Shown piece by piece: positions 38,156 to 41,893 of a DNA stretch of 64,000 nucleotides; positions within the stretch are counted from its first letter, which is position 1, and every line of letters starts with the position of its first letter. The stretch lies in the NCBI RefSeq assembly GCF_014138265.1, contig NZ_JACGXL010000003.1, forward strand, positions 310,001 through 374,000, written 5' to 3'. The stretch is from Dokdonella fugitiva (lineage in GTDB: Bacteria; Pseudomonadota; Gammaproteobacteria; Xanthomonadales; Rhodanobacteraceae). The notes beneath the pieces are model-generated. The model did not search any database. It was not told the origin of the DNA and saw nothing but the letters and a program-made list of their open reading frames with translations. Both the position numbers and the translations under genes were made by a program.

Positions 38156-39160
38156 ATGACGGACCTCATCCACCACGACTTCACGCTCGAGCCCGCCGAC
38201 GGCGAGCGCCTCTCCAACCTGGCCGGCCCGTTCGACGAGAACCTGCGCCAGATCGAACTGCGCCTCGGCGTGGAGATCGCCAACCGCGGCAACGTGTTCC
38301 GCGTGACCGGCAATGCACACGCGGTGAAGCTCGGCGAACACGTGCTGCGCGATCTCTACGCGGCGACCGAGCACGAAGCGCTGAGCGGCGCGCAGGTCAA
38401 CCTGCGCCTGTCCGAGTCGGGCATCGACGCGCTCGACGCGCGCGCGGAGGGCGCGCAGGACGTCGCGATCAAGACCAAGCGCGGCACGATCCGCGGCCGC
38501 GGCGCGAACCAGCAGCGCTACCTGCACGCGATCGCCACGCACGACGTCAACTTCGGGGTTGGACCCGCCGGCACCGGCAAGACCTACCTCGCCGTCGCGA
38601 TGGCGGTCGACGCGCTCAACGACAATCGCGTGCAGCGCCTCATCCTCGTGCGCCCCGCGGTCGAGGCGGGCGAGAAGCTCGGCTTCCTGCCCGGCGACCT
38701 CACCCAGAAGGTCGATCCGTACCTGCGCCCGCTGTACGACGCGCTGTACGAGATGCTCGGCATCGAGAAGGTGGGCAAGCTCATCGAGCGCAGCGTGATC
38801 GAGATCGCACCGCTCGCGTACATGCGCGGGCGCACGCTCAACGACGCGTTCGTGATCCTCGACGAGGCGCAGAACACGACCGTCGAGCAGATGAAGATGT
38901 TCCTCACGCGCATCGGCTTCGGTTCCGTCGCGGTCGTCACCGGCGACATGACGCAGAACGACCTGCCGCGCCACGTGAAGTCGGGCCTGCGCGACGCGAT
39001 CGAAGTGCTGCGCGACGTCGACGGCGTGAGCTTCACGTTCTTCACCGCGAAGGACGTCGTGCGACACCCGCTCGTGCAGCGGATCGTGCGCGCGTACGAG
39101 CAGCGCGAGGCGACCGCGGAGACGCTCGCCTCGAAGGCGACGCGAACCGATGAAAGCTGA
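38156..39160 (+). CDS. ybeZ: PhoH-like ATPase YbeZ
   Basis: A PhoH-family P-loop NTPase of 334 residues that works with YbeY in ribosome/rRNA quality control. It has an N-terminal KH-like segment, Walker A GPAGTGKT (136-143), the PhoH signature LVRPAVEAGEKLGFLPGDL, and Walker B FVILDEAQNTT. The ATG at 38156 gives family length; the very long upstream reading is a shadow of the hlyD region. The ybeY start lies 11 bases inside the 3' end of this gene. Confidence 0.95.
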   Translation: MTDLIHHDFTLEPADGERLSNLAGPFDENLRQIELRLGVEIANRGNVFRVTGNAHAVKLGEHVLRDLYAATEHEALSGAQVNLRLSESGIDALDARAEGAQDVAIKTKRGTIRGRGANQQRYLHAIATHDVNFGVGPAGTGKTYLAVAMAVDALNDNRVQRLILVRPAVEAGEKLGFLPGDLTQKVDPYLRPLYDALYEMLGIEKVGKLIERSVIEIAPLAYMRGRTLNDAFVILDEAQNTTVEQMKMFLTRIGFGSVAVVTGDMTQNDLPRHVKSGLRDAIEVLRDVDGVSFTFFTAKDVVRHPLVQRIVRAYEQREATAETLASKATRTDES

Positions 39161-39674
39161 CGCGCGCCGCCGCCCCGTCGCGAAGGCCGCGCGCGAGCGC
39201 GCCGACTCGCGCGTCTGCCTGTGGCTGCGCAACGAGGCCGGCCGCAAGGGCGTGCCGGTGCTGCGCACGTTCGAACGCTGGCTCGCCGCGATCCCCGACC
39301 TCGAACGACGGCGCGGCTGGAGCGAGATCAACATCCTCGTCGTCGGCCGCGCGGCCGGGCGGCGCTACAACCGCCAGTTCCGTGGCCGCGACTACGCGAC
39401 CAACGTGCTGAGCTTTCCGTACGAGCCCGCGCCCGGCGAACACAGCGGCCTGCTCGGCGACCTCGTCATCTGCGCGCCCGTCGTCGCGCGCGAGGCGCGC
39501 GAACAGGGCAAGGACGCGCGCGACCATTTCGCGCACATGACGATCCACGGCGTGCTCCACCTGCTCGGCTACGACCACGAGGAGATGGGCGAGGCCGAGC
39601 GCATGGAAGCGCTCGAGACGCGCATCCTCGCCGGCCTCGGGATCGCCGACCCGTACCGCGACGACGCCGCCTGA
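39150..39674 (+). CDS. ybeY: Endoribonuclease YbeY
   Basis: Single-strand-specific zinc endoribonuclease (174 residues) needed for 16S rRNA 3' maturation and ribosome quality control. The metal site is His133-x3-His137-x5-His143 (HGVLHLLGYDH). The upstream conserved strand NVLSFPYEP and GDLVICAPVV match the family. The N-terminus has an extra basic stretch of about 20 residues before the usual start. It overlaps ybeZ. Confidence 0.95.
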   Translation: MKADARRRPVAKAARERADSRVCLWLRNEAGRKGVPVLRTFERWLAAIPDLERRRGWSEINILVVGRAAGRRYNRQFRGRDYATNVLSFPYEPAPGEHSGLLGDLVICAPVVAREAREQGKDARDHFAHMTIHGVLHLLGYDHEEMGEAERMEALETRILAGLGIADPYRDDAA

Positions 39675-39748
39675 CGCGCCTTTTTCACTGCCGCGTCAGC
39701 CGCTTGCACCGGCCTCACCGCGCTGCAACCTTGCCGTCTCCGCGCTTT

Positions 39749-39757
39749 TGCTACACT
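39749..39757 (+). promoter_or_regulatory. Extended -10 promoter of corC
   Basis: TGCTACACT is an extended -10 about 36 bases before the corC ATG. TTGCCG lies 15 bases upstream of the hexamer (39731-39736), a short spacing. It suggests that corC and the DUF4105 gene can be transcribed independently of ybeZY. Confidence 0.45.
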
Positions 39758-39792
39758 GCCGCCCCGCCCGCAAGGGCTCGCAGCGGCACGCA

Positions 39793-40632
39793 ATGAGCGA
39801 GGATCCTCCCAGTACACCGCCACGATCGTGGTTCGAGCGCATCACCCAGGCGCTTTCCGGCGAACCGCAGAGTCGCGAGGAGCTCATCGAGGAACTGCGC
39901 CACGCCCAGGCCAACGGCCTGCTGTCCAACGACACGCTGTCGATGGTCGAGGGCGCGATCGAAGTCGCCGACCTCACCGTCTCCGACGTCATGGTGCCGC
40001 GCGCGCAGATGGTCTCGCTGCCGATCGACGCGCCGCTCAAGCAGATCCTCACCGACGTGCTCGAGTCGGGCCATTCGCGCTTCCCCGTGCACGCGGGCGA
40101 CAAGGACGAAATCCTCGGCATCCTGCTCGCCAAGGACCTGCTGCGCTGCTTCGTCGAAGGCGCCGACTGCGACATCCGCAAGCTGCTGCGCCCGGTCACG
40201 ATGATCCCGGAGTCGAAGCGGCTGAACATCCTGCTGAAGGAGTTCCGCCTGTCGCGCAACCACATGGCGATCGTCGTCGACGAGTACGGCGGCGTCGCCG
40301 GCCTCATCACGATCGAGGACGTGCTCGAGCAGATCGTCGGCGACATCGGCGACGAGCACGACGACGACGACGACAAGCACACGATGATCCAGCCCGCGGC
40401 GAACGGCGACTTCCTCGTCAACGCGCTCACCCCGATCGCGGAATTCAACGAACGCTTCGGCTGCGACCTCAGCGACGAGGCGTTCGACACCGTCGGCGGC
40501 ATGATCACCTCGGAGATCGGCCACCTGCCCGAAGTCGGCGAGGAAGCGACGCTCGGCGGCTTCCACTTCCACGTGACGAAGGCCGACGCGCGCCGCGTGC
40601 AGCAGTTCGCGGTACGGGTGCACGAGGCATGA
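39793..40632 (+). CDS. corC: CorC-type CBS-domain protein (magnesium/cobalt efflux)
   Basis: A cytoplasmic protein of 279 residues like E. coli CorC (YbeX), without the DUF21 membrane domain of larger relatives. It has two CBS domains (about 60-180; VADLTVSDVMVPRAQMVSLP, HMAIVVDEYGGVAGLITIED) and a CorC_HlyC transporter-associated domain at the C-terminus (DFLVNALTPIAEFNERFG ... TVGGMI). An acidic run DEHDDDDDKH links them. CorC is tied to Mg/Co efflux and, with YbeY, to ribosome function. The gene is followed by the DUF4105 gene. Confidence 0.94.
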   Translation: MSEDPPSTPPRSWFERITQALSGEPQSREELIEELRHAQANGLLSNDTLSMVEGAIEVADLTVSDVMVPRAQMVSLPIDAPLKQILTDVLESGHSRFPVHAGDKDEILGILLAKDLLRCFVEGADCDIRKLLRPVTMIPESKRLNILLKEFRLSRNHMAIVVDEYGGVAGLITIEDVLEQIVGDIGDEHDDDDDKHTMIQPAANGDFLVNALTPIAEFNERFGCDLSDEAFDTVGGMITSEIGHLPEVGEEATLGGFHFHVTKADARRVQQFAVRVHEA

Positions 40633-40660: not shown

Positions 40661-41893
40661 TTGAGCGCGCCGCGGCGCGCCGCGCGCGCGCTGGCGGGTG
40701 CGCTCGCGCTGCTCCTGCTCGTCGCGTTCCGCCTCGCCCACGCGAAAGGAGGCGACGTCGCGACGCCGCCCGCAGCGGCGCCGGCCGCTCCCGAAATCAG
40801 CCTGCTGACGATCGGCCCCGGCGAGATCTTCTTCGAACGCTTCGGCCACAATGCGATCGTCGTGCGCGATCCGGCGAACGGCAGCGCGATCGCCTACAAC
40901 TACGGCATCTTCGACTTCGCGCAGCAGGACTTCCTGCTCAACTTCGCGCGCGGCCGCATGCGCTATCGCATGGCGCTCGACGACCTCGCCGACGATCTCG
41001 AGATGTACCGCGACGAGCACCGCGAGATCGTCGAGCAGCGCCTAGCGCTGACGCCGGAACAGGCGCGCACGCTGGTCGACTTCCTCGAATGGAACGCGCG
41101 GCCCGAGAACGCGCAGTACCGCTACGACTATTTCGAGGCGAACTGCTCGACGCGCGTGCGCGATGCGCTCGACCACGCGCTCGGCGGCGCGCTGCACGCG
41201 CAGAGCGAAGGCCGTTCGCGCGGCTACACGTATCGCCTCGACGCGCTGCGCCTGATGGCGCCCGAGCCGTGGCTGATGCTGCTCATCGACCTCGGCCTCG
41301 GCCCCTATGCGGACCAGCGCATCGACTACTGGCAGGAAAGCTTCGTGCCGGCGACGCTCGCCGACGTGGTCGCCGGCGCGAGCAACGGCGGTGCCCTCGC
41401 CGCACCCGCGGTCACGCTTGCACGCGGCGAGATCGAGCCCTCGCCGATCCTGCCGCCCGACCTGCGCTGGCCGTTCCTCGGCCTCGGCATCGCGCTCGGC
41501 GCGGGCCTCTACCTGCTCGGCGGTTCGGCGCGCGCGTCGCGCCGCGTGCCGCTCGCGACGTTCGCGCTGCTGTTCGAGCTGTTCTGCGGCATCGGCGGCC
41601 TGCTGCTGCTGTTCCTCTGGTTCGGCACCGAGCATCGCTCGGCGTGGCGCAACGAGAATTTGCTGCTGCTCAACCCGCTCTGCCTCGCGCTGCTGCCCGC
41701 ATGGTTCGGCATCGCGCGCGGCCGCCTGCGCGAGCGACCGCGAGCACGCGCGATCGCCTGGCTCGTCGTCGTCGGCGCCGCGCTCGCGCTGTTCTCGAAG
41801 ATCCTGCCGACGTTCGCGCAGGCGAACCTGCACTGGATCGTCTTGTTCCTGCCGATCCATCTCGCGCTCGCGCTGCGCCTGCGCAGGGCGTGA
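40661..41893 (+). CDS. DUF4105 / Lnb-type membrane protein in the lnt position
   Basis: A 410-residue membrane protein. A signal-anchor segment (about 9-26) leads into a periplasmic DUF4105 (Lnb N-terminal) domain with the conserved histidine His63 (FFERFGHNAIVV) and cysteine Cys162 (FEANCSTRVRDALD), a likely catalytic pair. Five C-terminal TM segments follow (from about residue 270). In enterobacteria the gene after corC is lnt, the lipoprotein N-acyltransferase. The DUF4105 family includes Lnb, reported as the lipoprotein N-acyltransferase of Bacteroides. The same role here is inference. The start is a TTG with GGAG upstream, 28 bases after corC. Confidence 0.8.
   Translation: MSAPRRAARALAGALALLLLVAFRLAHAKGGDVATPPAAAPAAPEISLLTIGPGEIFFERFGHNAIVVRDPANGSAIAYNYGIFDFAQQDFLLNFARGRMRYRMALDDLADDLEMYRDEHREIVEQRLALTPEQARTLVDFLEWNARPENAQYRYDYFEANCSTRVRDALDHALGGALHAQSEGRSRGYTYRLDALRLMAPEPWLMLLIDLGLGPYADQRIDYWQESFVPATLADVVAGASNGGALAAPAVTLARGEIEPSPILPPDLRWPFLGLGIALGAGLYLLGGSARASRRVPLATFALLFELFCGIGGLLLLFLWFGTEHRSAWRNENLLLLNPLCLALLPAWFGIARGRLRERPRARAIAWLVVVGAALALFSKILPTFAQANLHWIVLFLPIHLALALRLRRA

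Follow-up and report, generated by a model that had tools for sequence, protein, structure and literature searches.

Two kinds of lipoprotein N-acyltransferase, Lnt and Lnb, are the systems closest to the gene described here. Lnt is reported to work by a ping-pong reaction with a Glu-Lys-Cys triad (PMC10313180) and is described as being made by almost all Gracilicutes (PMC11784454), and its loss is tolerated in several species that carry LolF (PMC7240156, PMC11784454). Lipoprotein modification enzymes are also discussed as antibacterial targets (PMC8048626). Citations of Lnb, as an enzyme of Bacteroides or Bacteroidota, appear in PMC12994826, PMC13103446, PMC13251419 and PMC12345273. DUF4105, the former name of the Lnb_N domain, has been placed among the papain-like proteins, a role in resistance transporters or in translocation being guessed at (PMC10318531), and a 2026 paper reported three genomic contexts in which Lnt has repeatedly displaced DUF4105 proteins (PMC12994826). 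The main text of that paper contains none of the strings 'Xanthomon', 'ybeX' and 'corC'; the corC context may be among its three contexts, and displacement is partly anticipated there. Our literature search (DUF4105; lipoprotein N-acyltransferase with Xanthomonadales) did not turn up any description of Lnb from this order.

We analyzed a 64-kb stretch of the Dokdonella fugitiva genome, hereafter the window. ORF calls and Pfam searches placed ybeZ, ybeY and corC in this order, followed by a 410-codon ORF, all on the plus strand, as the preliminary description of the locus had stated. The predicted start of the last gene is an in-frame TTG located 28 bases past the corC stop, and corC itself has a possible alternative ATG start at 39793. 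The features of the locus are listed in Table 1.

Table 1. Features of the ybeZ-ybeY-corC locus and of the Lnb-like gene (window coordinates)
Feature	Position	Strand	Evidence
ybeZ (PhoH-like ATPase)	38156..39160	+	PF02562 PhoH 321.9 bits; ATG start, TGA stop
ybeY (endoribonuclease)	39150..39674	+	PF02130 114 bits; overlaps ybeZ end
corC/ybeX (CBS + CorC_HlyC)	39748..40632	+	PF03471, PF00571, PF21917
Lnb-like lipoprotein N-acyltransferase candidate, 410 aa	40661..41893	+	Lnb_N + 5TMH_Lnb; NF051878 163.9 bits
Hydrophobic helix at the N-terminus (residues 4-27), either signal peptide or anchor	40670..40741	+	Model secondary structure, sequence
Predicted periplasmic catalytic domain, about residues 41-258	40781..41434	+	Lnb_N match 41-181, model
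His63 codon CAC, predicted catalytic histidine	40847..40849	+	Invariant in 25 rows and 80/80 named loci
Cys162 codon TGC, predicted nucleophile, start of helix 162-173	41144..41146	+	Invariant in 25 rows and 80/80 named loci; helix from model
Five-helix transmembrane domain 5TMH_Lnb	41465..41887	+	Pfam, alignment, model

The product of the 410-codon gene matched two Pfam domains, Lnb_N (PF13387) at residues 41-181 (90.3 bits, E 1.4e-25, cut-off 22.2) and 5TMH_Lnb (PF25221) at residues 298-403 (43.5 bits, E 4.4e-11, cut-off 25.2), and the Pfam scan at E 0.001 detected nothing else. Its earlier assignment as a DUF4105 membrane protein of the Lnb family was thereby borne out in both domains. The NCBIfam equivalog model for Lnb, NF051878, aligned along its length with residues 44-403 and scored 163.9 bits, missing its cut-off of 550. 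Because this score is far below the cut-off, we call the protein distant and Lnb-like, outside the Lnb equivalog by the NCBI rule. It resembles Lnb of Bacteroides in having the same two domains in the same order, a full-length model match, a Cys/His pair and a membrane anchor, whereas it differs in its score, in belonging to a gammaproteobacterial order and in occupying the corC-lnt slot, and its activity is predicted. With Lnt (PF20154 + PF00795, TIGR00546) it shares the slot after corC, probably the reaction, and presumably a cysteine acyl-enzyme. Lnt, however, is of the nitrilase type with Glu-Lys-Cys, whereas the Lnb-like protein has Lnb_N with Cys-His; neither LNT_N nor a C-N hydrolase domain with Glu-Lys-Cys was matched in it by Pfam or NCBIfam, in agreement with the earlier view that it lacks Lnt features.

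His63 and Cys162 were found at the positions first proposed for them, and both are invariant in a 25-row alignment whose sequences are 29-70% identical to the query. Homologues that had lost the pair were looked for, and it was kept in all 25 aligned sequences and in all 80 named loci, the best 80 of at least 544 relatives. Asn161, Arg167 and Asp168 are likewise invariant in the alignment. An AlphaFold2 model built on these 25 rows (mean pLDDT 93.5) starts with a hydrophobic helix, continues with a domain of ~210 residues and closes with five helices, which span about residues 269-286, 292-322, 339-352, 360-381 and 390-409. In this model, His63 opens strand 63-70 and Cys162 opens helix 162-173. 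A histidine that lies on a strand and precedes the cysteine, together with a cysteine at the start of a helix, is common to the modeled protein and the permuted NlpC/P60 enzymes; in LRAT, too, the histidine precedes the cysteine, which stands at a helix start. In the membrane part, W320, H325, N331 and P339 are invariant in the 25-row alignment, and H325 and N331 sit in the loop joining the second and third C-terminal helices (model and sequence). We read the topology by the positive-inside rule from the arginine-rich stretches, namely PRRAAR at the N-terminus, GGSARASRR and RGRLRERPRAR between helices, and RLRR at the C-terminus; all of them fall on one side of the membrane if the catalytic domain is periplasmic. 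Under this predicted topology, the loop with H325 and N331 would also be periplasmic, and these residues may contribute to a lipid site.

The preliminary description had called for a search of the complete genome for lnt, and we carried this out on the assembly of 4.77 Mb in 13 contigs (100% complete). Across the whole genome, the best match to LNT_N reached 13 bits (E 0.25) and the best match to TIGR00546 reached 22.9 bits on an apparent soluble C-N hydrolase; neither profile revealed an Lnt, and both matched E. coli as a positive control. A hidden Lnt elsewhere in the genome was considered by reading the two weak matches, of which one (L002) is the apparent soluble C-N hydrolase and the other (L003) looks unrelated by eye. 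One sampled congener, G110, likewise gave no LNT_N match at E 0.001. Lnb_N had a single match in the whole D. fugitiva genome. As for the surrounding pathway, Lgt is present (257.9 bits), and a single LolC/E-type protein scored over the model cut-off (484.1 bits; L229, C5:248943-250172), with three weaker matches below it, which fits a single LolF-type transporter.

We then examined the distribution of both enzymes in the order, named Xanthomonadales here after its nearest named loci, such as Rhodanobacter, Dokdonella and Xanthomonas. Lnb_N was detected in 237 of 250 Xanthomonadales genomes (191 of the 195 good ones), and LNT_N at E 0.001 in 54 of 250 (43 of the 195 good ones), 49 of them over cut-off. 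When the two tables were crossed by hand, 187 genomes had Lnb_N only, 50 had both, four had LNT_N only (G006, G017, G019 and G052) and nine had neither. Eight of these nine are less than 90% complete; the ninth, G092, is 96% complete. For G052 (84% complete), which has LNT_N without Lnb_N, a 3.5-kb locus (L039) was fetched. Since Lnb_N alone cannot separate the corC-adjacent type from paralogues, we fetched 24 loci of presumed orthologues, chosen from single-match genomes or as the weaker match of others and not drawn at random; CorC was encoded directly upstream on the same strand in all 24. A scan for relatives yielded at least 544 stretches encoding one, and the best 80, kept as named loci, include Xanthomonas, Stenotrophomonas, Lysobacter, Luteimonas, Luteibacter, Dyella and Rhodanobacter. 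Among these best 80, CorC lies directly upstream on the same strand in 79 (the 80th starts at a contig edge), YbeY is present in 70 and YbeZ in 69. The comparison of the corC-adjacent gene across relatives, proposed at the outset, thus found it conserved in those fetched. No LNT_N match was obtained in 15 of 21 named genomes, including all three Xanthomonas, both Stenotrophomonas and Rhodanobacter sp. Root480. In three divergent orthologues, 5TMH_Lnb passed its cut-off in one (39.4) and fell below it in two (20.4 and 20.2), and the Lnb model scored 117.7-163.9 bits on four corC-adjacent proteins.

Outside the order, the place after corC commonly belongs to the other enzyme. In a class sample of 369 genomes, five of them from Xanthomonadales, 335 have LNT_N and 90 have Lnb_N. 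Starting from strong LNT_N matches listed for this class, we fetched 20 loci outside the order, and in 18 of them CorC lies directly upstream of lnt (CorC was not found in the other two), so the slot after corC commonly holds lnt. Separately, the class genomes G252, G344, G361 and G366 (96-100% complete) had no LNT_N match and no listed Lnb_N, and they may have neither kind of N-acyltransferase.

The exchange of the two genes at this junction was also seen within the order. In family f7, represented by two sampled genomes (G006 and G017), Lnb_N was not detected and lnt stands directly after corC; the G017 protein scored 297.9 bits as Lnt, and the G006 protein shares 84% identity with it. In a CorC tree built from aligned segments (with L102 of G019 left out), f7 CorC grouped in one clade with the CorC of the order (support 96/96), and its placement inside versus beside the Lnb-bearing rows gave an AU p of 0.42. 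Conversely, an Lnb-like gene follows corC in three loci whose titles read Sinobacteraceae, Nevskia and Gammaproteobacteria (L155, L162 and L173), and their genomes gave no LNT_N match. The CorC rows of these Nevskia-like loci fall among the outgroup rows (a single clade was not rejected, AU p 0.157), whereas their YbeZ rows fall inside the Lnb rows of the order (97/91), and the two trees thus disagree. The YbeZ tree requires 2 changes for the Lnb rows, and L094 lies among the outgroup rows in it. G019 was at first a third candidate for lnt after corC in the order, also lacking Lnb_N, and was dropped: its YbeZ branch measures 5.2 changes per column and its CorC is 28% identical. Its locus (L102, C1:972500-983500) reads miaB-ybeZ-ybeY-corC-lnt-metK-trmB, with miaB, metK and trmB named by eye, and we take this miaB/metK-trmB gene order to recall Alphaproteobacteria. 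The operon is extremely diverged, and the genome is perhaps misplaced in the collection of the order.

These observations bear directly on the strongest competing explanation, in which N-acylation has disappeared from the lineage, its lipoproteins are diacyl, and the DUF4105 protein has another lipid or peptide job and took the slot by chance. Furlanetto and Divne (2023) reported no Lnt in X. campestris B100, and diacyl anchors were assumed and modeled there (PMC10368991); the single LolC/E-type protein over cut-off in D. fugitiva is also in keeping with the LolF type, with which loss of lnt is tolerated (PMC7240156, PMC11784454). As Lnt is dispensable in several LolF species, this lineage might do without N-acylation. 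However, both Lnb domains and the invariant Cys/His pair occur in the lnt slot itself, and in the two f7 genomes, where Lnb_N was not detected, lnt takes that place, an exchange at one junction that chance occupation does not predict. We therefore regard the loss of N-acylation as unlikely, and the Lnb-like gene argues against the diacyl lipoproteins inferred for X. campestris.

Paralogue controls addressed whether any DUF4105 protein would look like this one, and they ruled this out. Seven other Lnb_N proteins (five from the order and two from other class members) share the Lnb_N catalytic domain, but none matched 5TMH_Lnb, and on the Lnb model five gave no match and two reached 25.9 and 23.5 bits. 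CorC was not found within the loci of four order paralogues (L112-L115). Over its cut-off, 5TMH_Lnb was detected in four of 339 class genomes, all Xanthomonadales, with three more matches below it, and in a phylum sample of 388 genomes the Lnb model scored 156-177 bits in eight, again all Xanthomonadales, the next score being 28.4. Other DUF4105 proteins (L112-L115, L030, L042 and L057) comprise a short Lnb_N-only type, a DUF7844 type and, in other class members, a DUF7840/DUF7843 type.

We also compared the model with solved structures. A sequence search of solved structures with the Lnb-like protein gave no match, and in Foldseek none fell under E 0.001; the top solved match was TseH (E 1.5e-3, probability 1.00, TM 0.23/0.45), followed by CLN5 (E 0.032, probability 0.96). 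To our knowledge, no five-helix membrane domain occurs in LRAT, Tox-Act1, TseH or CLN5. Lipid-directed chemistry, as proposed for the Lnb-like protein, is reported for several of these permuted NlpC/P60 and papain-like proteins (PMC12994826), whereas their substrates differ from those proposed here. The nearest folds, together with the varied lipid substrates of permuted NlpC/P60 proteins (PMC12994826, PMC10318531), would suit a protein that acylates or hydrolyses some other membrane substrate, such as a lysophospholipid, a glycan or another protein. Its location in a slot that belongs to a lipoprotein acyltransferase speaks against this, as does its membrane domain of the Lnb type, as do the four order paralogues, possible doers of such jobs, which have no 5TMH_Lnb match and no CorC in their loci. 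We consider another substrate very unlikely.

Some members of the order encode Lnt-like proteins in addition. In the 50 genomes with both domains, the LNT_N matches range from E 1.8e-20 to 9.5e-4. We aligned nine of these accessory proteins (L103-L111; for example from G012, G236 and G173) against three Lnts encoded next to corC, including that of the excluded G019. Invariant Glu, Lys and Cys columns, which we take as the Lnt triad, are kept in all nine, whereas Cys-Tyr-Glu appeared in the three corC-adjacent Lnts and in none of the nine. Six of the eight scored proteins pass the TIGR00546 cut-off, and CorC was not found in the nine loci. Some of the accessory proteins are about 480-540 aa long, and others reach 810-863 aa with a C-terminal extension. 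Given that 50 of 250 genomes also have LNT_N and that six of eight scored proteins pass, replacement need not be complete everywhere. These both-type genomes would favor a backup role for the Lnb-like protein beside an Lnt-like protein doing the main work, but such a role is hardly credible given D. fugitiva and G110 without LNT_N at E 0.001, the 187 of 250 genomes with Lnb_N and no LNT_N, and accessory loci in which neither CorC nor Cys-Tyr-Glu was found. The preliminary description had suggested a second route or a backup; as the only candidate of the Lnt and Lnb kinds found in this genome, the Lnb-like protein looks more like a replacement than a backup.

In our judgment, the Lnb-like gene is very probably a distant relative of Lnb that took over both the job and the slot of Lnt, here and in most of Xanthomonadales. 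With the domain make-up, the conserved Cys/His pair, a genome in which no Lnt was found and the substitution at one junction all observed directly, the best reading is that a Cys-His acyltransferase, its activity being predicted, has displaced Lnt in place. We take the catalytic domain, anchored in the membrane by five helices, to belong to the permuted NlpC/P60 (LRAT-like) group. For the mechanism, including the activity, the acyl donor and the product, we reason by analogy with LRAT, Lnb and Lnt. On the periplasmic side of the inner membrane, His63 would activate Cys162, and a phospholipid would donate an acyl chain to this cysteine, forming a thioester. The S-diacylglyceryl cysteine that Lgt and LspA leave behind would then attack this thioester through its free alpha-amino group. 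The product would be a triacyl lipoprotein, the cargo of the Lol system. Since species with LolF tolerate lnt loss, a viable stage without Lnt, as in species with a single LolF, could have preceded the displacement and opened the way for it.

More tentatively, the place after corC may be an exchangeable N-acyltransferase slot, in which an Lnb-like gene displaced Lnt in the ancestor of Xanthomonadales, which it also occupies in a Nevskia-like lineage (after either transfer or another displacement), and to which Lnt returned in f7; we consider this history possible, though somewhat less probable than not. We read the Lnb-like gene as a remote form of an enzyme already known, in a lineage new for it and at a telling place, an interpretation well supported by comparison, with the activity predicted. 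In most of the order, to which Xanthomonas and Stenotrophomonas belong, LNT_N found no match and the gene in the place of lnt encodes an unrelated enzyme. If that enzyme is an N-acyltransferase, expectations about the lipoproteins of these bacteria change, a printed inference needs correcting, and the replacement becomes testable through one gene at one place. If the slot is indeed exchangeable in this way, Xanthomonas, Stenotrophomonas, Lysobacter and their relatives would rely on a Bacteroides-type enzyme for making triacyl lipoproteins, in conflict with the inference for X. campestris.
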